Part shown: in pieces, positions 20,091 through 39,699 of the stretch
How positions within the stretch are numbered: position 1 is the first letter of the stretch
How the letters are laid out: each line of letters opens with the position of its first letter
Source of the DNA: Okeania sp. KiyG1
Lineage (GTDB): Bacteria > Cyanobacteriota > Cyanobacteriia > Cyanobacteriales > Microcoleaceae
DNA length: 39,699 bases
NCBI RefSeq assembly: GCF_014132355.1
Contig: NZ_BLZO01000127.1
Location: 1-39,699, forward strand
Direction: 5' to 3'
The notes under the pieces: model-generated
Databases searched by the model: none
Told to the model about the DNA's origin: nothing
What the model saw: the letters and a program-made list of their open reading frames with translations, nothing else
Translations under genes and position numbers: made by a program

Positions 20091-21674
20091 CTATCGGTAA
20101 GTAAATCCGAAGACGTCTGGAACTACTGTCGCCGGCCCTACAGGAACATTTTTCGGGTCTGCTATATCCAGTTTCTCAAACTGGATGCCATCGTTCCATA
20201 CTTTGCGGAGGAAATCCTTGATGACATCAATGGTGAAAAGTTCGCCAGGGCAGCGACGGTATCCGAAACCGAAGGGCGCGTAGCCGGCATAGTCAGCCAC
20301 AGGAAATGTTTGGTCGTCGGTAACGTTGTAAACAGTACCAAATGTGCTATTGGTGATGTTAGTATCTCGACCATCCTTAGCCAGGAATCCCGTCTTGTGG
20401 AAGGGGCATTGGGCAAATCCGATTTCCTCGCATTTCTCGGCGTTAACTTCGTTGCTGGTCGGTACTTCTATGTAGCGATCGGGGTTAAAAATCGTCGGTT
20501 TTTTCCAATTTACATAATATTCGCTGGTTTCCTTGTGCGGAGTAACATAGTAGTTGTACCTATCGTAAATAGGCTCTCGCACTTCCTCCACCTTGGATAT
20601 GCTACCACTGTTGGGCGAAATTGTGCGGAATAACTCCATCACGAAGCGATCAAGGGGGGTAAACGGCTCGCCATTCGCTTCGTCATAGTCGCCGCTCATT
20701 GTTTTTTCAAACCAGGATTTGACAACAGGATTGCCCGCGTTTGTACTGAGCAAAGACATGATGTTGTAAATAGTATTGCCCCACTGACTAAAGGCAACAA
20801 AGTTGTGGAAGCACTCGAAGATAATATCGTCGCGTTTAAAATATGGAGATTTGCCACCATTACTATTTTCAAGCCAGTAATATACAAAAGTCTTGTCGGA
20901 ATCGCTTATATTATCCTCGGCGATATCGTTGACCTTTTGAGCGATCCATTTCTCTAATTCAGGGCGTATTTGGCGCACGTTCATGTAGTTTTCATACGTG
21001 ATTTCTTGGAGCGGATCTACATAGGCAAGGACTGTATTAAAACTCGTCCCTATCTTCGTGACATAATCCGGAATATCATCGCCCGTAACACCAAGATGTA
21101 AGTCCCAATAGAGGTTGAAATAGCTATCTAGGTACTTGCTCATCAGTGGTTGGCCGACGTTGGTCTCGCTCAATAGATTGTCGAAATAGCCAACCACCTT
21201 CTTCTGATAGTTGAAGGGATAGAGATCAGGGGTAAGAGCTGAATAGTAAATCCTTTTTTTACGATTATCTGGGCCCCGGTTTTGATAACCAGTGAGAAAT
21301 ACCGTGGTTCCTTCCTCCGGTTCAGGTTGCCAATTCTCGTATAACAAACCCCAAAACTGATAGGGTAGGGCATTCTGCTTGCTGAGTTTTTCGTCGTCGA
21401 GTAGCGGCAGAGTCAGGCGCGCTCCTTGATTGAGCCTTACTAAAAATAAGGATGTCAATATCACATGACGAATGTATTCTAGGTCGGTAATGTGAGAGGG
21501 TAAGTCACGAAACAAGTCTGGGGATATCTTCTCTCGCTTATCGATCTTTTCCTTTAGATCCTTGAGGCGCGATTGGGCATCATTGTTTTCAAGCAAAGAC
21601 TTGATTGATTTTGGAATAGCAAAGATATTGTACATATCAGTGAATACTTGATTAGGTGGATAGTTCGGGAGCAA
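20091..21674 (-). CDS. Divergent cytochrome P450-like heme protein, possible peroxygenase
   Basis: The 527-residue protein carries P450 landmarks: ExxR as E347-L-F-R350, FNPDRY (396-401), and a heme loop FGFGYRRCPG (468-477) with the axial ligand C475. The I-helix region (about 283-308, FHNFVAFSQWGNTIYN) lacks the acid-Thr pair used for O2 activation. RCPGELFTIDVIKDFLRKV resembles the H2O2-using CYP152 fatty-acid peroxygenases as I recall them. An extra stretch of about 65 residues lies between FNPDRY and the heme loop. No membrane anchor is seen. The start is TTG at 21674, with GGGAG 4 bp before it, or ATG at 21635. Its substrate is unknown. Its own leader, an ECF-like motif and flanking oxidase and phospholipase genes suggest oxidation of lipids with locally made peroxide (inference). 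Confidence 0.75.
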   Translation of the reverse strand: MLPNYPPNQVFTDMYNIFAIPKSIKSLLENNDAQSRLKDLKEKIDKREKISPDLFRDLPSHITDLEYIRHVILTSLFLVRLNQGARLTLPLLDDEKLSKQNALPYQFWGLLYENWQPEPEEGTTVFLTGYQNRGPDNRKKRIYYSALTPDLYPFNYQKKVVGYFDNLLSETNVGQPLMSKYLDSYFNLYWDLHLGVTGDDIPDYVTKIGTSFNTVLAYVDPLQEITYENYMNVRQIRPELEKWIAQKVNDIAEDNISDSDKTFVYYWLENSNGGKSPYFKRDDIIFECFHNFVAFSQWGNTIYNIMSLLSTNAGNPVVKSWFEKTMSGDYDEANGEPFTPLDRFVMELFRTISPNSGSISKVEEVREPIYDRYNYYVTPHKETSEYYVNWKKPTIFNPDRYIEVPTSNEVNAEKCEEIGFAQCPFHKTGFLAKDGRDTNITNSTFGTVYNVTDDQTFPVADYAGYAPFGFGYRRCPGELFTIDVIKDFLRKVWNDGIQFEKLDIADPKNVPVGPATVVPDVFGFTYR

Positions 21675-21745
21675 TTTGCTCCCTTGAAGTCAGGAACCCG
21701 GAGTGGGAAATAGGGCAACGGGCAAGGGACGGGGAATCTTCAAAT

Positions 21746-21804
21746 CTTTGAGATTCCTTTTTCCAGAATGGGATGTCCCCTAGGTTAAATAGGTAGGCAT
21801 AAAT
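21746..21804 (-). promoter_or_regulatory. Leader shared with the lipase gene
   Basis: It is nearly the same as 14758-14820 upstream of the lipase. Here it ends 72 bp before the TTG start, whereas at the lipase it abuts the ATG. Confidence 0.45.
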
Positions 21805-21827
21805 ATTGGACTTTATACTTCCACTAT

Positions 21828-22075
21828 TTTTTTGCTTTCCAAATACTAGACGTTACTCACCATGATTTTCTGACTCTTTTTTCCAAAAAAAATAAATTGC
21901 CCGACTTCTTACTTCTGTTAGGGGGACAATAGCTTCTCCTGCTGTCCCTCCCACTATCAAACTTGACTAGAAAACAAGCTGTCTCGAACAAGGGCGCAAT
22001 TCGGAGCAAGTGCGGCAGCTATATCGCTGCCCTATCCATATTAGTCACAGCACCTTTAGGAGCTTGGGCCTACAA
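21828..22075. repeat. Duplicated cassette, copy B, ending in an antiporter fragment
   Basis: It matches 17395-17620. The last 50 bp copy the antiporter coding sequence (CTGCCCTATCCATATTAGTC up to GGAGCTTGGGC). Confidence 0.8.
21848..21873 (-). promoter_or_regulatory. ECF-like promoter motif before the P450-like gene
   Basis: Minus strand TCAGAAAAT, 12 bp, CGTCT, about 175 bp before the start codon. It lies in the duplicated cassette also found before the sigma gene, so it is not independent of that copy. Confidence 0.4.
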
Positions 22076-22079
22076 TCAA

Positions 22080-22567: not shown

Positions 22568-22616
22568 TGACCATAAAATGGACTGTCTCAATTGAGGGCC
22601 TTGGGGGACTAAGTGT

Positions 22617-22898: not shown

Positions 22899-22916
22899 AA
22901 GAGCGCGATCGCTCTT
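22899..22916. terminator. Hairpin after the patatin gene
   Basis: AAGAGCG and CGCTCTT form a 7-bp stem around CGAT, 18 bp past the patatin stop. There is no U-run, so terminator function is only possible. Confidence 0.3.
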
Positions 22917-22934: not shown

Positions 22935-25115
22935 TTATTTCATATTCCATTTATCTAGCCAAAGATTCTTAAGTTTTTCAATTGTGCCTTCCTTGTCTCC
23001 CACTATCTCTTCCCAGCCTTTTCGGATCGCGTCCTTTTCCTTCTTTGTTAGTTTCCATGAGAGTGGTGGTTCGTATTCACCTTCTTCGCTATAAAATGAG
23101 AAGAAGATGGGGTAATATTTAATTTCTACCTTTTTATGGACTTCCCTTGCGTTCTGCCATTCCTGCAACAATTCTACCTCAGTTAAATTGCGGGAAGTAA
23201 GAATTGGCTTGCGAACCTTGAATAAGCCTAGCAACGGACCAATAGTTGCCATAAACAAACCTCGCTTCTTTTCCTTTTTAGGTTGCTCTTTAAGTTTGCT
23301 TTCAGGAAAAGAATTGATTTGTAAGATCAGAATTCTTTTGATTTCTGGGGTAGTTTCTTCACCTTTTTGGGTAGGTTTTTCACGAAGAAGGTCCTCAAGC
23401 CATTCTAATGCTGTCACAAAACCAGAATTGTCGAAATAGCCACCATCAGCGACGTGATAATTTTCTATCTTGGGATCTTGACCATCAGCGACGCGATCGT
23501 CGGCTCGACAAATGGGAGATATGTAAGGGAACGTGGCAGAAAGTCTTGCACCTGTGACAACATCAATATCTTTTCCTGGATAAAGACGATTAAAGTCGAA
23601 GAATTTTTTCTGATCGGGATTAGGAAATTTCGCTGGTGTAATTAGCAACCGCAAGCCATTTTCAACCAAAGTAGCATTCAATACAGGGAGCGGAATATTA
23701 CCTTCTTCAACTTCCGCTCGCCAGTCGGCTAAGGTTTTTGGAGACTCTGGGGTTTTCATACGTCCTTGCCAGTCCTTCTCTATTGCAATACCTCGATCTC
23801 TGATTTTGGGAGTGAGAATGTCTGGTAGGAACGGGAGGAAAATCATGCGCCACAAGTCAGGATAGGCTAATCCCCAACCTACTGCATCTAAACTGTTGGC
23901 GGTAGCGCCCTCAAATATTTCTTTTGATTCTGAAGCCGGTGGAAAACCTTTATCTGTAAAGCGATCCAGATAATACATTGCACCTACTGAGCCACCAGAA
24001 ACGGAACTAATTAATCCAATTGCTTTAGTAAATGATTCTCCTAACTCTTCTTGCAGGCCAATCAATACTTGAGCCGTCCATCCAGCGGCTTGAATTCCAC
24101 CTCCACTAGCACAGACAACAACTACAGTCTGTTTTGCAAGAGGCTCTTCCAGATCTTGTTTGTCCAGACGCTTTTGTAATAAGGCCGTCAAATTTTTTTG
24201 CTCTTCTGGCTGTTCTGGAGCGTCCTTTAATGTAAAATAGTGATCGACATTCAAAAGCCTATAGAGCGCTACAGCAATCAGCACCCAGAAGAACAAGACA
24301 GAAATACGCGAGTAATCGAAGAAGAAGGTAAGACAGCCCAACAAAAGCACCGATACGGAAATTAACAACATTACATATAAAAGTGCTGGCGGTTCTTCTC
24401 TCTTCTGATCGGGGGGCAACGAACTTGGCATAAAAAGCTTAAATGCGATCATATAGATAGCAAAAAGAACGATGAAAAAAACAAGAGCGTCAAAATGATT
24501 GTCGTTTAAAATACCATTATCGATATAGCCTGCTGCTTTGGAAGAGTGTTTGGTCAAAAAGGAAACTGCTTTCACCAACCCCTCATTAAGACCGGGAACT
24601 TTATCGACCGAGAGAAAGTTTCGAGTCAGTTTGAAAAGAAACAAAAAGATCAGGCCACATGACACCCCAAAAAACAATCCAGACCTTCTTTTGTTATTAT
24701 CCATTTCTTCCTTGGATAATTTAAATACTGTCCGGGTGGTCGGTAATGCTAGGGCGATCACTAACACATATTTATACCAAACTTTAGAATAAAAAACTCC
24801 TGGCAGTTCCGGAACCCCAAAACGAGCTGGCGCACCACCAAGGATTATTGCAACGACAAAGGTTACGGCCATTCCCGCCACAGTTGCACCCAAAATTGTC
24901 AACGCAATTTGAACAGCGTTACGCAGGACAAAAAGATTCTTGAGTATAGATTTCAGGGCACCTGTTGCGAGGAAAGGGAGCGCAATCAGCAATACGCCCA
25001 TGAGCAGAGGTATGCGTAGAAAAAAGACATACTGCCAAAAGGCGCTAGGCAGTAGGAGCCATCCCGTAACTACTACCGCTACAAGCCCCAGCCACCTAAT
25101 AATTTTTTGAACCAC
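22935..25115 (-). CDS. Membrane-anchored patatin-like phospholipase
   Basis: The 726-residue protein is predicted to hydrolyse acyl esters of phospholipids at the membrane. Residues 1-290 contain about seven or eight hydrophobic segments, including AVQIALTILGATVAGMAVTF and ALVFFIVLFAIYMIAFKLF. The patatin domain follows (about 328-640): oxyanion loop SGGGIQAAGW (337-346), nucleophile motif GGSVG with S376, and the dyad aspartate in DGG (557-559, VADGGYFDNSG). The start is GTG with AGGAGG about 11 bp upstream. A family 2 MITE ends about 50 bp before the start, so the promoter is probably inside or beyond it. Released fatty acids could feed the neighbouring P450-like protein (inference). Confidence 0.88.
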   Translation of the reverse strand: MVQKIIRWLGLVAVVVTGWLLLPSAFWQYVFFLRIPLLMGVLLIALPFLATGALKSILKNLFVLRNAVQIALTILGATVAGMAVTFVVAIILGGAPARFGVPELPGVFYSKVWYKYVLVIALALPTTRTVFKLSKEEMDNNKRRSGLFFGVSCGLIFLFLFKLTRNFLSVDKVPGLNEGLVKAVSFLTKHSSKAAGYIDNGILNDNHFDALVFFIVLFAIYMIAFKLFMPSSLPPDQKREEPPALLYVMLLISVSVLLLGCLTFFFDYSRISVLFFWVLIAVALYRLLNVDHYFTLKDAPEQPEEQKNLTALLQKRLDKQDLEEPLAKQTVVVVCASGGGIQAAGWTAQVLIGLQEELGESFTKAIGLISSVSGGSVGAMYYLDRFTDKGFPPASESKEIFEGATANSLDAVGWGLAYPDLWRMIFLPFLPDILTPKIRDRGIAIEKDWQGRMKTPESPKTLADWRAEVEEGNIPLPVLNATLVENGLRLLITPAKFPNPDQKKFFDFNRLYPGKDIDVVTGARLSATFPYISPICRADDRVADGQDPKIENYHVADGGYFDNSGFVTALEWLEDLLREKPTQKGEETTPEIKRILILQINSFPESKLKEQPKKEKKRGLFMATIGPLLGLFKVRKPILTSRNLTEVELLQEWQNAREVHKKVEIKYYPIFFSFYSEEGEYEPPLSWKLTKKEKDAIRKGWEEIVGDKEGTIEKLKNLWLDKWNMK

Positions 25116-25498: not shown

Positions 25499-25816
25499 TT
25501 TTGACCAAAAAATCAGGTCTCAAGCCTCCCCTTAGCTGCGCCGCGAGCTACCGCTCTACAAGGGGATGAAAAAGCGGTCGTTTGCGGAGCATGACCTAGG
25601 ATGGGATGGCGAGGTCCCCTCGCCATATCCAATCGACCAAGACAGCGGTCGTAGCGGAGCTTCCCGTAGGGTGGGATGGCGCAATTCGGAGCGGCTCTGA
25701 TAAGAGCGGGTTTCCTCGCCATATCCAATCGACCAAGAAAAAAATCAACTTCAATATTTCAAGCCTCTGACTTTAGGCAGAAGTACTGATAACTGATAAC
25801 TGATAACTGATATGAC
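25499..25816 (+). mobile_element. Family 3 element with two palindromic modules
   Basis: It starts with TTGACCAAAAAATCAGGTCTC, ends in AACTGAT tandem units and TATGACC, and contains two copies of a module running from AGCGGTCG through GGGATGGCG to CCATATCCAATCGACCAAG. Open frames inside follow the repeat and are not genes. Confidence 0.75.
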
Positions 25817-26642: not shown

Positions 26643-26953
26643 ATAAAGCCCTCCTAATAACTCAGAAGGCTCAAAAAAAGGCGAGATTGCTCCAAGGCGC
26701 GCAGGAGAATCGCTCCCATAAAAAAAAGCGACCGCGCTTCCATAAAAGAAGCGAGACGCTTTTTCAAAATCCCAAAAGGCCGAATGCTAAAATTAGTTAT
26801 TGGCGATCGCTCAAAGGAACAAGACCATGCTATTGAAGTTGAAGCGGTCGCCCTGTCCCCAAGACATCAGACAAAATGATCTCAACTTGCGCTCTATAGC
26901 GGGCAGATATCAAACTTCTCCAGCACCAAGTCAGCAGTTTCTAACGCGCCTTC
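26643..26953. repeat. Source copy of the duplicated block, with the MITE empty site
   Basis: It matches 19302-19318 plus 19610-19907. CTAATAACTCAGAAGG at 26651-26666 is uninterrupted here. It includes the 3' end of the flavin amine oxidase gene. Confidence 0.85.
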
Positions 26954-28504
26954 TACCCAACCCTGGGAATTTGAATAGGCTTCGCCGCAGATGTAGAGAG
27001 GGCAATCCTCCAAAGGTTTGACGATCTTAGGAATAACTTCCGAACTTTGGACGCCAATGTTCCAACTATTCCAACCGCCGCCAAACGGGTCGTCGCCCCA
27101 GTCGCGAAATGCGGCATTCTGAACTTCTGGCGTGTAGCTGAGATCGTGGATTTTCGCGAGTTGGCGTGCAACTTCTGCAACCATCGGTTTCGGCGCTTGG
27201 TATTGAAACCAAGGATTACATTTCCGTTCTTCCTCGCTGCATTCTCCCTGAAATGGATTGATAATTTCTGCGATTTCCAAACCCTTTTTCCATGCCTGAC
27301 GTCGCTGCGGGCGCAGACCATCCCAAAAACCCACATTTGTGCCATCATCGTAGCTAGCCATCAGCATAGATGGACCTTCTGTTGCGGGAGTGCCGTCATC
27401 TTTCGGCCAGTAGTATGTCTGTCGCACTGGCAGATCGGTCACGGTTCGTCCGGACTCAACGGGTACGAAATTCCCTTCAGCATCTGTATAGCCAGCAGCA
27501 CGCCACCAAGGGGAAGTATAGGTTGTGAATAACTTGAAAAGAGGACGTGGCGTAACGCTGGAGATAAGGGACTGAATTTTGTCTCCCCGAAGCATTGGGC
27601 TGTTGGGGGCTAAAAGATCTAGGGAGCGACGAGGCATGGCGAGAATCAATGACTCGGCAGCGATCGTTTCCCCCTTAACTGACAACAGGAACTGGTCGCC
27701 AATCCGTTCAAAACCATCCACCTTGCTCCAGAGGCGAATTTCACCTCCAATATCCTTAAAAAGCATCGCTACAGACTCCGGCACCTGCTGAAATCCCTTT
27801 TTAAAGCCCTTGTATTCTGGGTCAATACCAAAATCGGAGAGATACCAAGGAATTGCATCTGCTGCGTTCCAGTTCGTCAGAGTAGAATTGTAGCCACCGG
27901 CATCGACACTGAGTTCGTAAGCCTCCCCAGTGATGATGCGCGCCAGCACGTTCCAGAAACCCTGCTCGTAAAGTTGCCTTCCAGCAAATTTCGCCTCCCG
28001 TGCCATGTCTCGGCGCTGTTCTTCACTGAGATCGGGGCTTGTAATACCGGGAACAATTTGCTCGATCGCATTGACGATAATACCGCCAAGTTTTATGCCC
28101 CGTTCCAGAAAGGAAAGGTTATAGGGCACCTTATCGGGTTGGTCGGTAAAATAGGAAAGCCGCAGGTAGAAGCCCCGCAAATAGGCAATATTTTGTGGCT
28201 CGTCAACTGGAAAGTCGTAGAGTTCTATCTTATCGTTGGGAGCTAGTTGCCTGTTTAGTTTCTTAATGAGAGCCACAATCCGGTATTGCGTATTTTCGAG
28301 AATGCGCATTCCACCCAGCTCTGCAACCATATTATTAATACCGGGCGGCTTGACTGAAAGCAGTCGCCCGCCAATATGGTTGCTACCCTCGAAGAGAACG
28401 ATCTTTTTCTGGGGGAACTTTTGCTTGAGCCGCCAAGCACAATATACTCCCGATACTCCGCCACCTACGATAGCAATATCAATGTTTTCGTTTCCATTAG
28501 TCAT
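26894..28504 (-). CDS. Flavin amine oxidase (L-amino acid oxidase type)
   Basis: FAD-dependent oxidases of this family convert amines or L-amino acids to imines, which hydrolyse to keto acids or aldehydes, and pass electrons to O2 to give H2O2. From the ATG at 28504 it has 536 residues. It has the Rossmann motif GGGVSG (14-19), an acidic ribose-binding residue in VLFEGSNHIGGR, and the C-terminal FAD contact GWVEGALETAD. A GGAGG ribosome site 10 bp upstream supports this start over one 12 codons earlier. There is no signal peptide. Its substrate cannot be read. The 3' end has been duplicated at 19.6 kb. About 2.4 kb of nested mobile elements separate it from the LodB-like gene upstream. Confidence 0.88.
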   Translation of the reverse strand: MTNGNENIDIAIVGGGVSGVYCAWRLKQKFPQKKIVLFEGSNHIGGRLLSVKPPGINNMVAELGGMRILENTQYRIVALIKKLNRQLAPNDKIELYDFPVDEPQNIAYLRGFYLRLSYFTDQPDKVPYNLSFLERGIKLGGIIVNAIEQIVPGITSPDLSEEQRRDMAREAKFAGRQLYEQGFWNVLARIITGEAYELSVDAGGYNSTLTNWNAADAIPWYLSDFGIDPEYKGFKKGFQQVPESVAMLFKDIGGEIRLWSKVDGFERIGDQFLLSVKGETIAAESLILAMPRRSLDLLAPNSPMLRGDKIQSLISSVTPRPLFKLFTTYTSPWWRAAGYTDAEGNFVPVESGRTVTDLPVRQTYYWPKDDGTPATEGPSMLMASYDDGTNVGFWDGLRPQRRQAWKKGLEIAEIINPFQGECSEEERKCNPWFQYQAPKPMVAEVARQLAKIHDLSYTPEVQNAAFRDWGDDPFGGGWNSWNIGVQSSEVIPKIVKPLEDCPLYICGEAYSNSQGWVEGALETADLVLEKFDICPL

Positions 28505-28820: not shown

Positions 28821-29839
28821 TATCATGTCCGGTAGCATCGGTCTTGTATAGCAAAGGTAAGGAAGAAGGAAGAAGGAAGAGGGAAGAAGGAAGAGGTGCG
28901 ATTCGTTTGGCTAAACAAGCTTCTATGTAAGTTAGCCAGTCTCAAAAAAGGGATAACTCTAGTAGTCATGCAGGTTGAATTCCTGCCCTCTGGGATGTAG
29001 AGTGACTCTGAAGTTCAGGATTCCAAGGTAACAACTTGGTCTCTCAGTGCATGGACTTAAAGCCTTAAAACTAGAAGGTTTTTTCTGGTTATCGTGGCCA
29101 AGGGAGTTACATAAGGTTAACGCACAGTCAATCTAGTATAACCGCTCGTCATCTTCGATTGGTGAAATTAAGCCTGATACACCAAACCCAAAACGGGAAA
29201 CCTCACATAACTGGTAACGTAGTTCTTCGGCGTTATCACATCTAGTTGGAGGTCGGACGACACTAGGAGCCTAAATGTAACGAGAAATGATACTAGGGAA
29301 CGAAGTAACCCCCTTAAGACTCTCAGACCTTAACCTCTGAGTAGGAAAAGTTTAACCAATGTCTTTTAGGGATAAGGAAACTCCTGCGAAGCAAGCCTGG
29401 AGTAATGTTCAGGATATGCAGACGTGGGGAGGCACTGCAGGTAGCCGTGAAACCGAAATTGTATTAAGCCAAAACGCATTCGCCGGGGTAAGTAGGCTCA
29501 AGTCGAGAGTAGGAGACTCATGCCCGTGAAAAATCTCCAGGTATCCAAGCCAAAGAGTAGTGAAAACCGAGGCCAACAAGCGTTGACAAACCTTGAAATA
29601 TTAGGTGCGAGAATAGGTGTAACCAACCTTGAAGAATCCTGCAATGTTAGGAGCCGTATGAGATGGAAACTCTCATGTACGGTTTTGGAGTAGAGGTGAG
29701 GGATAGCGATATCCTCATCGACTACATCGGAAGAAGGAAGAGGGAAGAGGTCCGAAGGCTACCCTCGCAAGAAAAAAACCATTATTTCCTGTAGATATTC
29801 ACCCTTGGGTTTACACAAACGATATAAACGGACATGATA
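28821..29839. mobile_element. MITE, TATCATGTCCG family, carrying a group II intron
   Basis: Ends TATCATGTCCGG and CGGACATGATA are 1019 bp apart. Without the intron the element would be 189 bp, similar to its relatives. The flanks (TTA left, TCA right) do not match, perhaps because it sits at the junction of two other repeats. Confidence 0.8.
28896..29725 (+). mobile_element. ORF-less group II intron, about 830 bp
   Basis: The 5' end is GTGCGATTCG, the group II consensus. Domain V is GAGCCGTATGAGATGGAAAC through CTCTCATGTACGGTTTT (29651-29686). Domain VI is the hairpin GTGAGGGATA/TATCCTCATC with ACTAC at the 3' end. The stretch between is a long structured domain I-IV with no reverse transcriptase frame, so it would depend on a maturase made elsewhere. 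It lies inside a non-coding MITE between GGAAGAAGGAAGAG and ATCGGAAGAAGG and interrupts no gene. Confidence 0.85.
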
Positions 29840-30380
29840 TCAGTTATCAGTTATCAGTTATCAGTACCTCTGACTTTAGGCAGAGGCTTGAAATATTGAA
29901 GTTGATTTTCTCTTGGTCGATTGGATATGGCGCAGGTTTCGGAGCCATCCCACCCTACGGGAAGCTACGCTACGACCGCTGTCTTGGTCCATTGGATATG
30001 GGGAGGGGACCCGCTCTTATCAGAGCCGCTCCGAATTGCGCCATCCCACCCTACGGGAAGCTCCGCTACGACCGCTGTCTTGGTCCATTGGATATGGCGC
30101 AGGTTTCGGAGCCATCCCATCCTAGGTCATGCTCCGCAAACGACCGCTTTTTCATCCCCTTGTAGAGCGGTTGCTCCCGGCGCAGCCAAGGGGAGGCTTT
30201 ATATCATGTCCGAACGCAATCGTTTGTGTAAAAGTTAGCGTAAATATCTACAGGGAATTTAAGTTTTTTTCTTGCTTTTTCTTAAGTTTTTCTGTCTATT
30301 CCCTATTCCCTATTCCCTACCTTTGCTATACAATACCGATGCTACCGGACATGATATGAGACCTGATTTTTTGGTCAAGA
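29840..30380 (-). mobile_element. Family 3 element with three modules, interrupted by a MITE
   Basis: Reversed copy of the 25499 element: AACTGAT units at the left, TTGACCAAAAAATCAGGTCTC at the right. It holds three CTTGGTCSATTGG...CGACCGCT modules (29912-30150). The MITE at 30202-30356 splits GGTCTCA from AAGCCTCCCC. Three overlapping open frames here follow the repeat and are not genes. The stretch 30381-30592 shows no recognisable gene. Confidence 0.7.
30202..30356. mobile_element. MITE, TATCATGTCCG family, 155 bp, nested
   Basis: Ends TATCATGTCCG and CGGACATGATA. The flanks are TTA and TGA (TAA/TCA on the other strand), one mismatch from a perfect TNA duplication. It lies inside the family 3 element. 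Confidence 0.85.
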
Positions 30381-30925: not shown

Positions 30926-32113
30926 TTAGATTGACGCATAAGCAAGAAGATTGGCCTTTTCCAAGCCAGTTCTTTCCTGACGTCGCTGCCAAAAAGGAGA
31001 AGCAGGCCATCGTTGTTCCATTTGGTAGAAGTAATTGCGCTGAGTCAAATAATTATCAAATCGAGAGGCAATCAGAGATTCGTACTCCTCCAGACCCCCA
31101 CTATCTCCATGCAAATAGGAAGCAATAGCCTTCCCTGCCTTCAGACTGTCCCAGAGCGCCTTATAAATACCCTGGGAGGAAATCGGATCGAAAGCCGAAG
31201 CCGCATCTCCTACAGCCAGCCAGCCATTTCCTGTAGACTGGTCTAACCGGAATGAAGGCGCAGTGCAAACCATTATCTTCGGTACTTTGGCCTGCGGTGT
31301 CGAAGAGACTGAAAGGCTGTCGATCGCAGAACAATCGGCCAATTCTTTTGAGATGTGCTTGGTTTCTTTCAGGTAGGCCAGCCAGTTTTCCATCCGGTGC
31401 AGTCCAGTATCTTTGATAATTGATGGTTCGCTAGCTACTACCGTTGCTAACCTATTGTTAGGAAGCTTGGCTACATACCACCAGCCATATTCTACCGCCT
31501 CTAACAGAGTTAGTTTGGAAAAATGGGAGTCAGGAGGAAGGTCGAAAAAAGCGATCGCGCAAATCAGTCGGTCGAGAAAAAGTTTTCTCGCTCCCAAACT
31601 TCTGGCAAAACTGCCTCGCGTTCCGGTTGCATCTACTAAAAAACTTGCTGTTACCGCTCGTGTTTGCTTGTCTTCTCCCATAAGCTGTAACTGGAAGCTT
31701 TCAGGATGGGTGCGATCGCAATTCCGAACTTTCGTCCCACAAAGCAGCTCTACCCCCCTTTCCATTGCTTTCTGGGCTAGAAAAGCATTGAAACGCCTCC
31801 GGTCTAAATGCCAGCCGTTACCATAGGGATTACACAAAAAGTCATTGTATCCCAGGGTGTCACTTCCCCAGGAAGAGCAACTACCAAAACAGGTCTCGTG
31901 GTTTTCCTGAAGAAAATCCTCCAATATTCCCAGTTCGTCCAGAAGAAGACGGGTATCTGGTGGAATGCTCTCGCCGATGCGAACAGTTTCATAACGACCA
32001 GACTCTACAACCAAAATTTTGGAAATTCCTTGTTGTTTGAGAGCGAGAGCAGTGGCGCAACCCGCAGGTCCTCCACCGATAATGGCTACATCATATTCAC
32101 TAGAAAGTTTCAT
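30926..32113 (-). CDS. LodB-like FAD-dependent oxidoreductase (CTQ maturation partner)
   Basis: LodB and GoxB flavoproteins are needed to form the cysteine tryptophylquinone cofactor of their LodA or GoxA partners. The 395-residue protein has the FAD motif GGGPAG (13-18), GESIPP (about 48-53) and the second FAD motif GDAASAFDPISSQG, the pattern of the tryptophan-halogenase-like flavoprotein group. GWWYVAKLP resembles but does not equal the halogenase GWxWxIP. ATG start; no signal peptide. It follows the LodA-like gene at 32608 on the same strand, as expected for the pair, but nested MITEs lie between. A role for both LodA-like proteins is possible (inference). Confidence 0.85.
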   Translation of the reverse strand: MKLSSEYDVAIIGGGPAGCATALALKQQGISKILVVESGRYETVRIGESIPPDTRLLLDELGILEDFLQENHETCFGSCSSWGSDTLGYNDFLCNPYGNGWHLDRRRFNAFLAQKAMERGVELLCGTKVRNCDRTHPESFQLQLMGEDKQTRAVTASFLVDATGTRGSFARSLGARKLFLDRLICAIAFFDLPPDSHFSKLTLLEAVEYGWWYVAKLPNNRLATVVASEPSIIKDTGLHRMENWLAYLKETKHISKELADCSAIDSLSVSSTPQAKVPKIMVCTAPSFRLDQSTGNGWLAVGDAASAFDPISSQGIYKALWDSLKAGKAIASYLHGDSGGLEEYESLIASRFDNYLTQRNYFYQMEQRWPASPFWQRRQERTGLEKANLLAYASI

Positions 32114-32290: not shown

Positions 32291-32580
32291 GGGGCTTACG
32301 CAGAACCACTATATCTGGTAGGAGCGTTACGAAGTATGCGAAGCAAACGGCCGTTTGCTGGCGCAAAGCTGCGCTAACGCCCCTACAAATGGTGTATAAT
32401 TTCATGTTTTGCGTAATATCATGTCCGTTGGTATCGTTTGTGTATAAAGTTGGGGAAATATCTAGCGCCATATAAGGTTTTTCCTTCTCTTGTAGGGGCG
32501 ATTCGCGAATCGCCCCTACTTCTTCCTTCTTCCTTACCTTCTCTATACAATATCGATGCTACCGGACATGATATAAGTCC
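32291..32580. mobile_element. Family 2 MITE split by a TATCATGTCCG MITE
   Basis: The left end is GGGGCTTACGCAG. The right end GCGTAAGTCCTG is split after GCGTAA by the insertion at 32417-32573. It occupies most of the gap between the LodA-like and LodB-like genes. Confidence 0.75.
32417..32573. mobile_element. MITE, TATCATGTCCG family, 157 bp, TSD TAA, nested
   Basis: Perfect ends, with TAA at 32414-32416 and 32574-32576. Its body is the reverse complement of 19450-19606 with very few differences. Confidence 0.9.
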
Positions 32581-32607: not shown

Positions 32608-34506
32608 TCACAACCCCTGAGGAAAACGATTTATTTTTTCGATGTATTCGTCGAACTCATTGACGGTAGCAAGAGGGTCTGCACCAGCCAAATCAATTGT
32701 TTCATCTGCTTCAGGTGCATCTAAATCTCGTACTTCAACTTGTATTTTTGCTGGGAAATCTGAAACATCTGTGGGACCGTCAAAAACCTCAACAATACCC
32801 ATGCGATCAAAATAAGCAATCATATTATTGAGCTTTGATTCATTGTTCCCGTTACCTAAAGTCCGAAACCAGTTAGAGCGCTTGTAAAATGCCTGACGCC
32901 GTACCTCTAGGGATCGAGATTGATCCATAACAATATCGTAATCAGGTCGAGATAGCACTTGATTGGGAACTCGTGCCGGCCAAAATGTAGGCAGATAAGG
33001 ATCGTATTTTTTCCCGTAACCCGCATAGTATGCAAATTTGCAACTAGCAGTATCGGTTTGCCAAGGAACCGCCATCCAGCGCGTGATGTCCCCAGGACTT
33101 TGTGCGTATAGAGGTCCGACTTCCGACAGACAAACTACTGGAGTCAATTGCGAGCCATAATCTATCGGTTTTTCGCTCTCTGGACGATGCCGAATCCGGT
33201 ACGGAGACATATACATAGTTGCATGACGCATCGGCCAAGTCATTTCACAACCGGGGTGGAAAGCATCCGCCAGACAAAAATCCAAAGCAGCGCGATCGAG
33301 CATTGCTGGCTGCTCATTTAGAGGTACTTCTTGGATGAAAGCGGGAGGAGTGGCAGTGGGATTGTAATCGTTAATAAAATTACCATCTGCCCAACATTGT
33401 AGCATATTTAATTGCGTATCCGTCAACTTGGCGTTTTGACGTGGTGTATTCGCTGGAGGTACGTTCATCGCATCCCCATACAGCCAAGGCCAGGGTTGGG
33501 GGGCTTTGCCGTCCCGATGATATTCGCGAAACATATTAGCGAGTTGCTGGCGTAGCTCTTTTTGCAAGTCGGATGTACTTGCTAGAGTTTCGATCCATTT
33601 TGAGTCTTGAAAATAATAGGGACTCTCCCAACCAAATTGAGCTGCAAAGCCTTTATTCACCCACTCCAGATTGCTCATGCGCAGGAAAATGGGGAGGATA
33701 TCTTGAGTGAAAGAAATAGTTTCTGGTAATGGCATTCTGCCTGCCTGAATATAGACATCTGTCATCAAATCGTACATCGTTCGCACTGATTTTTGCATCG
33801 GTCCATAGTTAGGCGGAGCCACAACAACCCAGGCAGGATCGACAGGAATCGACTGACCGTCTATTGTAACTGTTGCAGTTATCGGTCCATCACTGGTATC
33901 GTCGTACCAACCCTCGTTATTCGCGTAGGTTGTAGCTGGGGTACCATCCTTTGATTCCGACTTGCCACGTCCTCCTAATACTACTAATCGACCGCATTCA
34001 TCAGTTCTGAGCTCGCCGAGGTAAACTTGCTTATTGAAGAATTTTCCTTTATCAAAGAAATAATTGCAGCCTTGTGTATTTGCTCCAGAAATAGAGATGC
34101 TACCTGGGTCAATAACTAGCAGCTGTCGAGCTGGCCCTTTAACCTCAGCATTTCGCCGCTTACTTGGGAGTGCTTTTATAGCTTCAGGGATGTCTAGAGC
34201 TAGTTGAAACTCATACCAAGCTGCTTTTTGGTTGACAAGATGAGCAGACCAGGTTATTTCTGCATTTTCTGTTGTCAGCTCCCGAACTACTTCTCCGGTA
34301 GCATTGTAACCATAGATGCGAAAACGAGCTGCTTCACGCTTCAAAGCTCCGGTGCTGTCGCGGTAAAAGCCTGGTTTTTGAGCTGGTGGATCGGTAACTT
34401 CTGGGGCAAAATAATATTCGTTTTCGCTGTTACCAACGCGGGCGATGCCAATACCGGGGTGGATAGCTGCCCGGACAATGGTGTTGTCATTACTGTTTTC
34501 TGTCAT
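32608..34506 (-). CDS. LodA/GoxA-like quinoprotein amino-acid oxidase
   Basis: Characterised members (lysine 6-oxidase LodA, glycine oxidase GoxA) oxidise amino acids with a cysteine tryptophylquinone built from a Cys and a Trp, releasing H2O2 and ammonia. The 632-residue protein has the family N-terminus IHPGIGIARVGNS (15-27), GRLVVLGGRGKS (172-183), WYDDTSDGP, and the cofactor region CLADAFHPGCEMTW (411-424) followed by VPWQTD (480-485) and a WPAR motif. C411 or C420, with W482, are candidates for the crosslink; spacings of 71 and 62 compare with 65 in LodA (C516-W581). No signal peptide; export by a partner is known for some members. Substrate unknown. LodB-like gene follows. Confidence 0.87.
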   Translation of the reverse strand: MTENSNDNTIVRAAIHPGIGIARVGNSENEYYFAPEVTDPPAQKPGFYRDSTGALKREAARFRIYGYNATGEVVRELTTENAEITWSAHLVNQKAAWYEFQLALDIPEAIKALPSKRRNAEVKGPARQLLVIDPGSISISGANTQGCNYFFDKGKFFNKQVYLGELRTDECGRLVVLGGRGKSESKDGTPATTYANNEGWYDDTSDGPITATVTIDGQSIPVDPAWVVVAPPNYGPMQKSVRTMYDLMTDVYIQAGRMPLPETISFTQDILPIFLRMSNLEWVNKGFAAQFGWESPYYFQDSKWIETLASTSDLQKELRQQLANMFREYHRDGKAPQPWPWLYGDAMNVPPANTPRQNAKLTDTQLNMLQCWADGNFINDYNPTATPPAFIQEVPLNEQPAMLDRAALDFCLADAFHPGCEMTWPMRHATMYMSPYRIRHRPESEKPIDYGSQLTPVVCLSEVGPLYAQSPGDITRWMAVPWQTDTASCKFAYYAGYGKKYDPYLPTFWPARVPNQVLSRPDYDIVMDQSRSLEVRRQAFYKRSNWFRTLGNGNNESKLNNMIAYFDRMGIVEVFDGPTDVSDFPAKIQVEVRDLDAPEADETIDLAGADPLATVNEFDEYIEKINRFPQGL

Positions 34507-34713: not shown

Positions 34714-35808
34714 TTAAGGATTACTTGAATCCAGAAAAACCTCAATCCCATGCACGGGTTGACCATTAGACCAATTACCCATATCGAAGTTGAGCAAGTC
34801 GGCTCGCTCCCCATAGCGAATGACACGATCGAGGCCATACCAGATGTAACGCCAATTCAAATCATTTTCCACTCCTACGCCGTCGAGAACTGTTAGAGCC
34901 AAAAACGTATCAAAAAAGCTAGTATTCACCGTCGCTTGTTCGTGGTTCGCATACATACCCGGACAGCCACGATCGTCGGTGAAAGACAAGAACATTTTCT
35001 TTTGTTCTGTTTTAATATAAGTAAATGGTTGCTTCCATTCATCTTTAGGTACAACCCAGTCATCATCGCCATGCAAAATAGCCACAGGCATCGTTAAGGC
35101 AGCCCCAGTTACTTGAACATCCACATCATCGGTAATTTTCTTAATCAAATCCCCCAATGGCCCCGGTATATTAGCGACATTGGTATTGGGAAGCGGATCA
35201 GCCACAAGTACCTGCTGGGGTAACAGGTTCTCAGGAAGATGTTCTTGTTCAATATAATAAGCCCAACTCAGGGCAAACAACCCACCTAAAGAATGCCCAA
35301 AGAGATAAGTATCCACCGGAACGTTCGCTAAATTAGCTGCTTGGTAGGCGGTGCTAACGCTTTTTAGTGCATTTTTCAGCCATTTCTCTTGGGAATCAAT
35401 CAAACCATCGCCAACCAATTCCTCTGCCAGTTCGAGGGCGGTTTTCCAGGCCGAATTTGGGAAAGAACAAAACCCCGTTTGAAAGTTGGGATAAAAGACG
35501 TAGTAGCCTTGTTTAACTAAATGTTCCAGGTGAGAGCGATAAATTTCCGAGGCTCCTAAGTCAAAACCATGTAAATATATTACTGCTTTTGGTTGGCTAT
35601 TTTCTCCTAAAAACGGCGTTTCTGGCACATAAGTTTCAATGTAAGATCCCTGCTTGCATTCTCCTGCTTTTTTGACCTGGTACTTGGGGGAGGTATAAAT
35701 ATCGCTATAGTCTGGTTTGGTTGGGGCTTTGGGACGGAAGCTATGGGTCAGGCGACACCAAAAGTTTGTTAAATAATACTGAATGGTAGAGGTAATAATG
35801 TTTGACAT
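34714..35808 (-). CDS. Alpha/beta hydrolase, lipase-like
   Basis: From the ATG at 35808 it has 364 residues; a TTG 6 codons earlier is an alternative start. The fold is recognisable from YLHGFDLGAS (oxyanion strand-loop), the nucleophile elbow GHSLGG (S173) and HGDDDWVVP, which holds the acidic residue; a His in ANHEQATV may complete the triad. There is no clear signal peptide. The substrate is unknown, perhaps a lipid or ester. It lies between the two LodA-like genes on the same strand, so cotranscription with either is possible, though terminator-like hairpins stand on both sides. Confidence 0.8.
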   Translation of the reverse strand: MSNIITSTIQYYLTNFWCRLTHSFRPKAPTKPDYSDIYTSPKYQVKKAGECKQGSYIETYVPETPFLGENSQPKAVIYLHGFDLGASEIYRSHLEHLVKQGYYVFYPNFQTGFCSFPNSAWKTALELAEELVGDGLIDSQEKWLKNALKSVSTAYQAANLANVPVDTYLFGHSLGGLFALSWAYYIEQEHLPENLLPQQVLVADPLPNTNVANIPGPLGDLIKKITDDVDVQVTGAALTMPVAILHGDDDWVVPKDEWKQPFTYIKTEQKKMFLSFTDDRGCPGMYANHEQATVNTSFFDTFLALTVLDGVGVENDLNWRYIWYGLDRVIRYGERADLLNFDMGNWSNGQPVHGIEVFLDSSNP

Positions 35809-35845
35809 GAGTAGCAATAGAAGCAAGTCTGGCGGAGAAATTTGC

Positions 35846-36045: not shown

Positions 36046-37593
36046 TTAGGATTCTCCATTGATAGGTCGGCGTTCTGTTTCAACGTATTCGTTACCCTGT
36101 TCAACAATGAAACCTAGATCGGACCAGTGCTTCACCATCCCGGAATAACCAATAATTCCCCTGGAATAGTCCTTGAAACTGTCACCCACCTTGACGGAAA
36201 CGGGTCGCTGGGCAGGCCACCAAAAGTTACCGCAATCGTTAAAATCAGCTTGCCAGGGCAAAGCCATATTTTCTGTCAAATAGCCCGGTTTGTGGCTGGG
36301 ATCGATCCGAAAGGGAGCGCTGTAGGTTTCAGGCAAGGTCATCAGGTAGGTGGTCTCAATACCAGGGAAAAATGGCCCGCCAATGCAGGCTTCCAAGGCG
36401 GCTTGGGTGAGAGCATGGGGTTGCTGCTCTCGTGGAAGCTTGTCGAAGGGTATTGGGTCAGGCTCTGAGCCTGGCCAATCCGCATCAAAATCTCCATCTT
36501 TCCATTTTTCCATTTGCAGATATTGGTGTTGGGTCAAAGATGGGAAAATATACGCGCTTAAGGGATTACTAGGCTCGACTCCTGAAAACAACTTTGGCAT
36601 ATTTGTAGGATAGGATGCCAGTTGTTGCGGTTCCGGGGCAGAGCTATTTGGCTTAATTAGACGGTCAAAAACTCTTTCGCGCTGTGGTTTGTTTTCGTCA
36701 GAATTATCGTTGAGCTGACTTACTTTAGCTATAAAGTCTCCCCCAGTACCGGTACCATGTCCGCCCCGAGCAGATGGACTCACCCATTGAAGAAACACAG
36801 TTCGCTTCAGGATGGGATAGATGTCTTTCGTAAAGGAGGGACGAGCCAACTTCTGATGCGGATGAAAATAACTAGCGTCAACGTTGACAGCTTGATCGTA
36901 CCAGGTCATCATATTATCTATCCCTGGGGCATAGGCTGGTGCCGCCACAACCACCCAAGCTGGGGTTGCATCGAACGTTTCGTTGCCAATCTTAATAGTG
37001 GCAGTCACAGGACCGTCAGATACGTCATCGTACCAACCATCATTGTTGGCAAAGCTGACCATTTCAGAGCCCAAGGGAGAGGCGGACTTTCCATGACCTC
37101 CTAATACAATAAGACGCCCTACATCATCTGTTTTAAGATCGCCGAGTTTCACATTCGCACTCGCCTTTATCTTAGCTTCTTCGATAAAAGTAATATCACC
37201 TTCTAAAGGACCAACAGCTTGATGTTTTCCACTAATCGTATACTTGCCCCCATCAATAGTTAGATCGTCGCGATCGTATCCAGAATTACGATCTTGGTTT
37301 AAGCGCGAGGGAAATCTTTTACCTGCTGCTTTGCTGTTAACTAGATGCACAGACCAATTAATTGTCGCATCATTAGCTGTAACTTCACGTTGGATAGTTG
37401 CCTCGCCATATTGATCTACCTCATACTCATAGATTCGGAAACGGGCACCCTGACGCTTAATTTGGCCTTCATTATCCCGATATTTTCCTGGGGGAACAAT
37501 GCCAGGAGCCTCTGGACCGATGAAATATTCATCGGGGCTATTGCCCAAGCGAGCAATACCAATACTAGGGAAAATTTTGTAAATTTTTGTCAT
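36046..37593 (-). CDS. Second LodA-like protein, altered at a candidate cofactor cysteine
   Basis: The 515-residue paralog shares IFPSIGIARLGNS (8-20), GRLIVLGGHGKSA, WYDDVSDGP and LPWQADFNDC (445-454) with WWPAQRP. The cofactor region reads CIGGPFFPGIE (403-413): C403 aligns with C411 of the neighbour, but I412 replaces C420. W447 is kept, 44 residues after C403. If the crosslinking Cys is the second one, this protein cannot make the quinone in the usual way. It is about 115 residues shorter, mainly between motifs. GGAAA lies just before the ATG. A weak ECF-like motif lies at 37736. Function may be oxidase or catalytically altered partner. Confidence 0.85.
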   Translation of the reverse strand: MTKIYKIFPSIGIARLGNSPDEYFIGPEAPGIVPPGKYRDNEGQIKRQGARFRIYEYEVDQYGEATIQREVTANDATINWSVHLVNSKAAGKRFPSRLNQDRNSGYDRDDLTIDGGKYTISGKHQAVGPLEGDITFIEEAKIKASANVKLGDLKTDDVGRLIVLGGHGKSASPLGSEMVSFANNDGWYDDVSDGPVTATIKIGNETFDATPAWVVVAAPAYAPGIDNMMTWYDQAVNVDASYFHPHQKLARPSFTKDIYPILKRTVFLQWVSPSARGGHGTGTGGDFIAKVSQLNDNSDENKPQRERVFDRLIKPNSSAPEPQQLASYPTNMPKLFSGVEPSNPLSAYIFPSLTQHQYLQMEKWKDGDFDADWPGSEPDPIPFDKLPREQQPHALTQAALEACIGGPFFPGIETTYLMTLPETYSAPFRIDPSHKPGYLTENMALPWQADFNDCGNFWWPAQRPVSVKVGDSFKDYSRGIIGYSGMVKHWSDLGFIVEQGNEYVETERRPINGES

Positions 37594-37735
37594 GTTTTTC
37601 CTACTTCACTGAAATTGAACAACGATCGCTTCCCTACGGGGTAGTTATCCCGCAAGTGCGAAACGACTCCAGATAACGAAGTTCTTCTTTTATTTGATTT
37701 CCTCAAACTTCTGTTGTCTGTTGGTCATAAAAATA

Positions 37736-37760
37736 AGACGTTTCCAAAGCAAAATTCAGA
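37736..37760 (-). promoter_or_regulatory. Weak ECF-like motif before the second LodA-like gene
   Basis: Minus strand TCTGAATTTT...GGAAACGTCTTAT; GAAACGTCTTAT matches the box at 15362, but the upstream box is TCTG and the spacing is one base shorter than in the other copies. Confidence 0.25.
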
Positions 37761-37784
37761 ATTTTTCAACTGGATAACTTTTTC

Positions 37785-37911
37785 AGGACTTACGCAGTAA
37801 CGCTATATATAGCTCTCAAAACTATTGGACAATAGTTATTGAACTCTATAAATAGTGTCTTTGCGTAAGTCCTGTGGATAACTTTTTCAGGACTTACGCA
37901 GTAACGCTATA
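37785..37911. mobile_element. Family 2 MITE and adjacent partial copy
   Basis: A complete element spans 37785-37873 (AGGACTTACGCAG to TTGCGTAAGTCCT). A partial copy of its left end with flank (TGGATAACTTTTTCAGGACT) follows at 37875-37911. The remaining 37912-38085 shows no gene. Confidence 0.75.
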
Positions 37912-38085
37912 TGTCGTTGAGCGTCATCTGATCAAATCCAGCAATAAATACTGGAAATAAATAGACGAGTTAGCATTCAAGTCAAAGAACTTATATAACT
38001 TGTCCAATTATTACTGTCACCAACGATTCTTTGAGATAGGTAGGTCATTATCACTTACCGACCTTTATTAGCTCTTAGGCTAAAG

Positions 38086-39699
38086 TTATCGGACATAAGC
38101 AGGCAGAGTTGCCCAAAATGCACCTTCCACAGTCAAGCGCGTATCTGGAAGGAGGTCAATATCAGGAACGCTATACATTGGATCGCAGAGCTGACAGACT
38201 GCATTTAGAGCCGAAGCAACTGCACCCTCTTGCCAACCCGTTAGGTGAGAAAGCTGGTCGCCAACAATATAAAAATTTTGGTCGCCCTTAACCAAGGTGT
38301 TAAAGTGAGTTTCTTTATTCTCAACGGTACTCCATTGTGCCCATCCACCTTTTTGGTGAGGTATATTTTGCCAGGCAATAGCCAGACCATGCTTCAACCC
38401 ATCAGCGAAGTCATCACCTCCAAGGTTTCGCCCTCCCTCCCTAGCTAATTCAAGGCGCTTCTCAGGTTCCAGATCGCCCCATTTTTGGGCAACAGCACTA
38501 AAATTGTAAGCTCCAGTAAGCACGCCTAACTCTGCGTGGTATTCCTCGGAAGGATACCAGATTTGAGCTATTTCGTCGCTGCTCCAGGAGATACCCCCAT
38601 AAATAGGAACATCACCAGCACCTTCTGCTTCTTGCCATAGACGACGTTCTGCCTGCCAACCAACTTTCGTTGTGTCTGCTAGAAACTTGCGACGGTATCC
38701 ATCCTGCTCTTCTACTCCTACATTTTGGGCTTTGTACACTGCATCTAACGCGGCTTGAAAGCTCGGCGAAAAATGATTTGGCTGCAATACCCCTTGAAGT
38801 AGAGGCATGGGGACATTGCTCAAGCAGTAATCCGCTTCTATTGTGTAGGTTCTTTCCTCTTGTTTATAAGAGATGGAATACTTTCCATTGATGTACTCAA
38901 TATTTTCAACTACAGCATTCAGTTGTATTTCACTCCTTGCGTCAGGTTCTAATTGTTCCTTGAATGCATAGACAATTTTATCCATTCCTCCCACAGGTTG
39001 AAACAATGTAGGTTGCCACAGAAAGTCTATGGGTTGATAGAAACGTGTTTTGCTCCAAAACTCCGATCGCAACAGTTCTTGGAGAGATTGAGGCTCTGTA
39101 ATCTCCCCTGGTCCAACTCCTGGTAAAACATTGTAACCTGCGCGATCGCTACCCTCATACATACCCTCTTCGTTTAGATTTCCAAACACCTGTAGAAACT
39201 GCTTGAATTTTTCGATATCTCCAGCAGACATATCGGGAAAATTATCAGGGTTTAAAAGTTGTTGGTAAAGTTCTTGAGCAACCCACCCTTGCATATTATA
39301 AGCTGGCTGACGGTAGGGCACTGATTGGTTTCCAAAATGGTTTTGTACGTATGTCAGGTTGGAATCGCTCGCCATCACATAGACTTCCATTGGCACCGCG
39401 AACTTTTTCATATAGCTCAAAAGCAGCTTATGGGAGGAGGGAATTCGCCCAGGCCCTGCATTGAGGTAGGGAGGATAGGGTTCTCCAGCTTCACTCTCAA
39501 ATTTGCACTTCTGAAAGCCATACTTATCCTCTTTAATAACATTTCCGGGACGAACGGTGTAAGAACGGCCACCAATACGATCATTAGCTTCCAGAATGAC
39601 ACAACGACTTAAATTAATATCTTCATTATTTAGCAGTTCGTAAGCAGAAGTGAGACCCGCAACTCCAGCTCCAATAATGACTGCCGTTTTTCCCTGACC
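38086..39699 (-). CDS. Second flavin amine oxidase, 5' end beyond the window
   Basis: The frame is open from the window edge (537 codons visible). It begins at residues just before the FAD motif IIGAGVAGL, followed by VILEANDRIGGRSY with the ribose-binding acid, and LNAGPGRIPSSH. The C-terminal FAD contact is GDQLSHLTGWQEGAVASAL. This is the L-amino acid oxidase/monoamine oxidase superfamily; the reaction gives an imine and H2O2. A TTG at 39420 is not a real start, because conserved sequence continues upstream. It differs strongly from the oxidase at 26894. It is followed by the second LodA-like gene after 490 bp that include two MITE copies. Confidence 0.87.
   Translation of the reverse strand, partial: GQGKTAVIIGAGVAGLTSAYELLNNEDINLSRCVILEANDRIGGRSYTVRPGNVIKEDKYGFQKCKFESEAGEPYPPYLNAGPGRIPSSHKLLLSYMKKFAVPMEVYVMASDSNLTYVQNHFGNQSVPYRQPAYNMQGWVAQELYQQLLNPDNFPDMSAGDIEKFKQFLQVFGNLNEEGMYEGSDRAGYNVLPGVGPGEITEPQSLQELLRSEFWSKTRFYQPIDFLWQPTLFQPVGGMDKIVYAFKEQLEPDARSEIQLNAVVENIEYINGKYSISYKQEERTYTIEADYCLSNVPMPLLQGVLQPNHFSPSFQAALDAVYKAQNVGVEEQDGYRRKFLADTTKVGWQAERRLWQEAEGAGDVPIYGGISWSSDEIAQIWYPSEEYHAELGVLTGAYNFSAVAQKWGDLEPEKRLELAREGGRNLGGDDFADGLKHGLAIAWQNIPHQKGGWAQWSTVENKETHFNTLVKGDQNFYIVGDQLSHLTGWQEGAVASALNAVCQLCDPMYSVPDIDLLPDTRLTVEGAFWATLPAYVR

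Follow-up and report, generated by a model that had tools for sequence, protein, structure and literature searches.

What does it mean that genes for four amino-acid-oxidase-type enzymes lie on one strand, together with lipid-hydrolase-like genes and a cytochrome P450-like gene, in the cyanobacterium Okeania sp. KiyG1? The stretch of DNA analysed here (the window, 39,699 nucleotides) is the whole of contig NZ_BLZO01000127.1 (C127), from an 11 Mb genome in 198 contigs belonging to an Okeania-type cyanobacterium. An earlier note, made from the letters of this DNA alone, had described eight genes grouped on one strand and had proposed that they work together; the grouping was borne out, as all eight open reading frames (ORFs) lie on the minus strand between 20091 and 39699, in the order AO2, GOXA2, ABH, GOXA1, LODB, AO1, PAT and P450 from the right end, with a lipase gene, LIP3, farther left. 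Our answer, to which we give a probability of about 0.55, is that the locus is a shuffled, peroxide-generating amino-acid-oxidase island with a core under purifying selection and exchangeable accessory enzymes. The genes concerned are the following:

38086..39699, minus strand: AO2, homolog of the L-amino acid oxidases that carry flavin adenine dinucleotide (FAD), N-terminus truncated by the contig end (Amino_oxidase, 4.2e-28)
36046..37593, minus strand: GOXA2, short LodA/GoxA-type quinoprotein with cysteine tryptophylquinone (CTQ) residues Cys454/Trp459 (LodA_N 6.7e-67, LodA_C 3.8e-31)
34714..35826, minus strand: ABH, alpha/beta hydrolase (Hydrolase_4, 7.3e-08)
32608..34506, minus strand: GOXA1, LodA/GoxA-type CTQ quinoprotein, Cys489/Trp509 (LodA_N 6.7e-87, LodA_C 4.6e-44)
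30926..32113, minus strand: LODB, LodB-type flavoprotein maturase (NF038171, 293-294 bits)
26894..28504, minus strand: AO1, FAD L-amino acid oxidase homolog, probable start at M13 of a 548-aa ORF (PDB 8jhe, 839 bits)
22935..25115, minus strand: PAT, patatin-like hydrolase with a hydrophobic N-terminal part (motifs read by eye)
20091..21674, minus strand: P450, P450-like heme-thiolate protein, perhaps distant kin of CYP152 (ExxR, Cys475 loop, Thr301)
13740..14756, minus strand: LIP3, class-3 lipase with an N-terminal signal-like stretch seen by eye (Lipase_3, 1.3e-15)

The spacing is about 200-500 bp between the genes from AO2 through LODB (LODB lies about 495 bp downstream of GOXA1) and 1.3-2.4 kb beyond LODB. 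AO1 probably starts at M13, 12 codons inside its ORF, because the closest named relative at the locus, Okeania sp. SIO3B5 (taken here to be genome G422, GoxA1 95% identical), has stops upstream of the M13 codon. AO2 is cut by the contig end at 39699, its SIO3B5 ortholog (an ORF of 581 aa) being 45 residues longer at the N-terminus, and a search of the window genome found no contig adjoining this end. To the left, the oxidase set probably extends to LIP3, since LIP3 adjoins PAT in SIO3B5, where it is truncated by the contig end.

The two FAD amine oxidases and the two LodA/GoxA-like proteins named in the earlier note were recovered by domain searches, the former as Amino_oxidase matches and the latter with both LodA_N and LodA_C above the Pfam cut-off. 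AO1 and AO2 have full-length homology to solved L-amino acid oxidases and two different closest structures, the ancestral enzyme 8jhe for AO1 (residues 17-543) and 2jae for AO2 (156 bits). The Cys and Trp that form CTQ are the same in all 94 aligned rows of the LodA/GoxA family, a few of which are repeated Okeania proteins, and C489 of GOXA1 aligns with C516 of LodA. Both quinoproteins stay far below the NCBIfam equivalog cut-offs, GOXA1 and GOXA2 scoring 445 and 314 bits for GoxA (cut-off 750) and 195 and 221 bits for LodA (cut-off 600), and we therefore do not predict their substrates. They are not tandem duplicates: they share 36% identity over 484 columns and a tree making them sisters was rejected (approximately unbiased (AU) test, p 9e-6), so that they came together from separate lines and not by duplication. 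GOXA1 is 66% identical to its match in a gammaproteobacterial metagenome-assembled genome, and GOXA2 is 67% identical to its match in genome G143. Release of hydrogen peroxide (H2O2) is known both for the FAD L-amino acid oxidases and for the LodA/GoxA families.

Six of these genes, LIP3, PAT, AO1, LODB, GOXA1 and ABH, keep their order and orientation in SIO3B5 with 88-95% DNA identity (88% for LIP3). The AO1 and ABH matches there stand at 97% and 96%. On the main SIO3B5 contig (C10) all genes are on one strand and run from LIP3 through PAT, AO1, an interrupted GMC oxidoreductase gene, a 137-aa protein, LODB, a sub-threshold THAP4-like protein, GOXA1, a CxxCH-motif protein, a 97-aa protein, a third LodA (LODA3) and a ferritin-like protein to ABH. 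The AO2 ortholog (96% identical) lies on a separate small contig (G422:C736), at whose end the beginning of an RRXRR-like reading frame can be made out by eye. Since C10 has an RRXRR/HNH match at its ABH end, this hints, though it does not prove, that AO2 is located near ABH in SIO3B5 as well. Between the window and SIO3B5, the ratio of nonsynonymous to synonymous substitution rates (dN/dS) is 0.13 for AO1 (computed from M13), 0.20 for GOXA1, 0.22 for LODB, 0.12 for ABH, 0.17 for AO2 and 0.29 for LIP3 (over 264 codons), and the oxidase core is therefore maintained; for PAT it is 0.91, and 0.62-0.99 over the six pairs of four genomes. The synteny of six genes in a second Okeania, together with purifying selection on five of the six and on AO2, supports the view that the grouping exceeds chance.

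The partner of the quinoproteins is of LodB type, as had been claimed, its matches to LodB/GoxB models being all below cut-off (the score in NF038171, against a cut-off of 400, makes it LodB-type and not a LodB equivalog). Three proteins of the window genome match the LodB model, namely LODB (293 bits), one on C59 (145 bits, beside a distant LodA) and a weak partial one on C85 (44 bits); clear LodB-type genes found in this genome are thus LODB and the one on C59 only. A single maturase appears, from this gene content, to serve the two quinoproteins. In our trees LODB groups with the LodB of G431 and G360 (support 98/91), and the LodA partners of these two group with LODA3 of SIO3B5 (94/78). 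The candidate placement of LODB with the LodB of GOXA1's nearest relative was rejected (AU p 0.009), and the tree placing it with the LodB of GOXA2's relative was not (AU p 0.275). Because several rows in the LodB and LodA trees are long branches, LODA3 included, we place LODB only as not belonging to the GOXA1 side; with the caution that such branches call for, GOXA1 is accompanied by a maturase of what looks to be another lineage. A second and very distant LodA/LodB pair is common to the window genome and to G421, G431 and G420 (L008 on G000:C59, L141, L142 and L143).

On the reading that we favour, the locus is a genomic island of mosaic make-up in Okeania, a genus of marine cyanobacteria. 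Its core, predicted to oxidise amino acids or amines, joins a single LodB-type maturase to a pair of unrelated CTQ quinoproteins and to FAD L-amino acid oxidases of two different types. From what is known of the chemistry of these families, the oxidases would convert amino acids to a keto acid or aldehyde, ammonia and H2O2, and these predicted activities would most likely serve either to hold off competitors or grazers with peroxide or to draw nitrogen from amino acids. The lipase, patatin-like and alpha/beta-hydrolase genes are neighbours inherited along with the core, and accessory redox genes have been gained and lost, such as P450 and GoxA2 in the window, vanadium haloperoxidases in other strains, and the ferritin-like protein, third LodA, CxxCH protein and GMC oxidoreductase in SIO3B5. 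What the sequences show is family membership, synteny, selection and the mosaic make-up, whereas the activities, the release of peroxide and the ecological role are inferred. According to the extracts of two papers (PMC4417212, PMC4699246), H2O2 is a product of LodA-type enzymes, several of which act against microbes.

Several points weigh against this reading. Only two genomes, both of the same genus, are known to have the six-gene core, and the 1.3-2.4 kb gaps, the repeats and an intron between the left genes make a single transcript unlikely. No signal peptide is obvious by eye on the four oxidases (AO2 lacks its start here), and this makes a role as secreted antimicrobials less likely, although known LodA acts outside the cell. 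A promoter scan was uninformative, giving 28 sites where 29.3 were expected and 26 terminators where 19.5 were expected (standard deviation 4.3).

The alternative that survives best, possible but in our judgement rather unlikely, is that the locus is an insertion hot spot that collected functionally unrelated genes, so that the oxidases would have separate jobs and no joint function. Repeats and mobile elements are indeed present in the gaps, including:

29649..29727, plus strand: group II intron domain in the gap between LODB and AO1, outside the oxidase set (Rfam RF00029, 53.7 bits)
19607..19913, no strand assigned: duplicated fragment with the AO1 3' end, directly downstream of P450 (96% to 26662-26969)

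The duplicated fragment, a direct repeat, codes for AO1 residues 524-548 with 92% identity; two further pairs are inverted, 19449-19607 / 32416-32574 (100%) and 25522-25738 / 29982-30199 (93%), and these near-identical long repeats are likely traces of recombination. No long ORF is listed on the plus strand around the intron domain. Between LIP3 and P450, a sigma-70-like factor gene recognised by eye occupies 16089-17243 on the minus strand, and a similar-looking gene lies upstream of an ABH relative in G403.

The gene content of the locus also differs in each Okeania relative examined, as a hot spot would predict; what is seen in G420 and G431 we count for the mosaic island that we favour. 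G420 shares a methyltransferase/antiporter block with the window (92-95% DNA identity in the three longest pieces), and the same contig also holds the patatin, what is left of the CxxCH protein and a LodA/LodB unlike that of the window. In G431, of another genus, a single contig carries the patatin together with an N-terminal fragment of AO2 (94%). In G418, broken AO2 and ABH pieces have as neighbour a gene of the vanadium bromoperoxidase type (435 bits to 5lpc); genes that match this one at 85% identity adjoin the ABH relatives in G421 and G430, and the ABH relative of G435 is on a contig without such a gene. The positions in the three genomes are:

L110:17409-19238, L116:10519-12378 and L115:5095-6948: vanadium bromoperoxidase-type genes beside ABH relatives or remnants

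In G402 (L138:6964-12713), ferritin-like, LodA, LodB and vanadium chloroperoxidase-type genes follow one another in a row. Peroxide-using or heme partners beside LodA are a recurring theme, also in the literature, where the extracts of one survey describe catalase-like fusions, operons with tyrosinase or multicopper oxidase, and ferritin-like neighbours in fungi (PMC4417212). Chloroperoxidase-type genes were also seen near GoxA1-type genes in three loci (L031, L050 and L055).

PAT, which had been taken for a patatin phospholipase, adds to the case for a hot spot. The motifs GGGIQ, SGGSVG and DGG can be read by eye, which agrees with that assignment, but PAT has no Pfam match at 1e-3. Four genomes from two genera (the window genome, L108, L139 and L179) have its ORF unbroken, and its synonymous divergence (dS) is low, 0.07-0.12 against 0.22 in the flanking genes (G000/G420), so that PAT looks horizontally spread and fast-evolving and seems to be independently mobile.

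The hot spot is also favoured by the distribution of these genes beyond Okeania. LodA_N was found in 3 of 386 sampled cyanobacterial genomes (the window genome included) and in 6 of 62 genomes of the family. We compared the best 80 of 157 GoxA1-type loci found, from many phyla and with flanks of at most 10 kb and often shorter, counting neighbours by tblastn at 1e-5. A LodB-type gene is close by in 76 of the 80, and in three of the four loci that have none the sequence stops about 130 bp or less from the LodA match. By contrast with this pairing, PAT, ABH and P450 are found at none of the 79 non-Okeania loci, AO2 is near one (L076) and AO1 near one (L058), with a weaker ORF-based match in L074. 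The earlier note had looked to neighbourhoods sharing at least four of the eight families as support for one system: one such neighbourhood exists, that of SIO3B5 in the same genus (1 of 80), but there is none among the 79 others, where only the pairing of GoxA1 with LodB recurs. Plasmids give a similar picture: among 36 records matching GoxA2, the five viewed all have LodB-type genes near the match, three have ferritin-like genes (Azospirillum, Hymenobacter and Mycetohabitans) and none has PAT, ABH, AO1, AO2 or P450 of these families; among 17 matching AO1, none of the four viewed has a LodA nearby and one (Flammeovirga) has a weak AO2-like neighbour. The set is conserved within Okeania and not in the distant genomes examined. 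Relatives of the CxxCH protein of SIO3B5 occur near GoxA1-type genes in four non-Okeania loci (L056, L063, L081 and L088).

What stands against a mere hot spot is that insertions in SIO3B5 have left the order and strand of the six genes unchanged, and that four genes of amino-acid-oxidase families within 13 kb are a thematically narrow collection.

A second alternative is the pathway proposed in the earlier note, in which the hydrolases would free fatty acids, the oxidases would make H2O2 and the P450 would act as a peroxygenase; we consider it quite unlikely, and a single peroxide-to-lipid pathway does not follow from the grouping. The P450-like protein is, judging by its conserved motifs, a real but divergent P450: ExxR, the Cys-ligand loop and a Thr in the I-helix stretch (Thr301, identified as the catalytic Thr by motif alignment rather than by structure) are kept in all seven relatives. 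The window P450 has 14.6 bits to PF00067, whose cut-off of 22.8 is exceeded by two of the five members tested. The protein had been said to lack the O2-activating I-helix pair, which holds for the acid before Thr301, replaced by Asn in six of the seven and by His in one, but not for the Thr itself.

Kinship with the peroxygenases is suggested by the NCBIfam models, in which CypC (CYP152) ranks first among the P450 models for six of the seven members (E between 5.7e-6 and 0.08, the seventh being without a match), and by a Cys loop, 'RCPGE..T..V', that resembles fatty-acid peroxygenases. Against this, the window protein scores 17.9 bits and the highest of the seven 25.2, where the CypC cut-off is 600; the eight PDB matches of the family profile are at chance level (E 0.06-0.9), although six are named fatty-acid peroxygenase or P450 152A1, and a PDB search with the single window sequence gave no significant P450. 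In CYP152 the acid-Thr pair is replaced and an Arg-Pro pair lies over the heme, and no Arg-Pro was seen in the I-helix stretch of the seven aligned sequences. The single-sequence AlphaFold model (mean predicted local distance difference test score 32.5) was unusable for a fold search.

The genomic setting of the P450 likewise argues against a maintained joint system that includes it, and this part of the earlier proposal is not supported. The gene was not found in SIO3B5, its segment in the window is inserted between similar repeats (17399-17618 and 21828-22064, 86%), and the six other P450 loci (16-41 kb, tblastn at 1e-5) have no intact oxidase, LodB, patatin or ABH of these families. It was found in 2 of 386 genomes of the phylum, a count that may be low as at most three candidates were scored per genome, in 3 of 62 genomes of the family (both counts include the window genome) and in three plasmids; two proteobacterial members carry twin-arginine translocation (TAT) signals. 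In favour of a link, G328, of another family, has an AO2-type C-terminal remnant of 33 residues (58% identity, E 2e-7) at L098:4217-4315 on the minus strand, about 75 bp downstream of its P450 and on the same strand, and the rest of that genome holds no close AO2 in intact form; the remnant is a trace of a past linkage between P450 and oxidase. In the window, likewise, the copied AO1 3' end follows directly downstream of the P450. A ferritin-like PF12902 gene adjoins the P450 relative in G420 (L175:8841-12732). The P450 is thus accessory to the island, with signs that it has met L-amino acid oxidases more than once, and the peroxygenase idea keeps some weak support from the CypC matches and the G328 remnant, far below the cut-off as the former are. 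Equally, we find it unlikely that the locus holds a natural set of hydrolase, H2O2-producing oxidase and peroxygenase akin to CYP152, in which a LodB of the LODA3/GoxA2 side would mature quinoproteins of two other lineages and GoxA1 would apparently have been acquired without its own maturase.

In pathways of the VioA/VioB and RebO/RebD kind, an L-amino acid oxidase works with a PF12902 partner. That the window is the reduced remnant of such an oxidative-coupling pathway, fuller in SIO3B5, is very unlikely, for although a PF12902 gene adjoins LODA3 in the SIO3B5 island and genes of this type stand beside LodA in G402, Azospirillum and Hymenobacter and beside fungal lodA (in the extracts of PMC4417212), the window genome has no PF12902 match (5 of 14 genomes searched have one; no search aimed at VioC/D/E-type genes was made) and AO1 has 839 bits to the ancestral L-amino acid oxidase against about 24 bits to VioA. 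Anti-phage defence was rejected, as PADLOC run on AO1, AO2, PAT, ABH, P450 and LIP3 matched only AO1 (6e-5) and AO2 (1e-8), both to a desaturase-type model, which we attribute to the shared flavoprotein fold.

The amino-acid-oxidase island that we favour can be compared with several known systems. Our searches of PMC found no description of an Okeania gene cluster with amine oxidase or L-amino acid oxidase and no gene cluster of amino acid oxidase plus haloperoxidase with hydrogen peroxide, nor any other paper that we judged to describe this set. An artificial cascade of lipase, alditol oxidase and OleT, a CYP152 enzyme, works in vitro and follows the same logic as the lipid pathway, but is engineered, to judge from the extract of its report (PMC7075034), and the island gives no evidence of a natural equivalent. 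Compared with the CYP152 fatty-acid peroxygenases, best model for six of seven P450 relatives and similar in the Cys loop, the window family differs in its far lower scores, its retained I-helix Thr and the TAT signals of its two proteobacterial relatives; with this weak kinship, the P450 branch is a candidate for a peroxide-using enzyme. AO1 and AO2 are alike over their full length to the bacterial and ancestral L-amino acid oxidases (2jae, 8jhe), but the island pairs these two types with CTQ oxidases.

Catalase-like fusion proteins belong to LodA group III in the extracts of the survey (PMC4417212), and 50 of the 91 family ORFs above 450 aa that we collected have 942-1136 aa; one long ORF tested (L055) has an N-terminal PF00199 match (E 1.5e-4, below the Pfam cut-off), and GOXA1 (632 aa), which we infer to belong to group III, is without such an N-terminal domain. 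The lodA-lodB and goxA-goxB operons of Marinomonas and others, as far as the same extracts describe them (PMC4417212), resemble the island in having LodA_N/LodA_C proteins with the CTQ Cys and Trp and a LodB-type flavoprotein nearby; the island differs from them in its two unrelated quinoproteins with one LodB, in the interleaved FAD L-amino acid oxidases, patatin-like gene and alpha/beta-hydrolase, and in proteins that do not reach the equivalog cut-offs for LodA, GoxA and LodB. That source (PMC4417212) suggests that LodB-type maturases might each act on their own partner specifically, and an island with one maturase and two unrelated quinoproteins, to one of which the maturase lineage seems foreign, makes this specificity directly testable.

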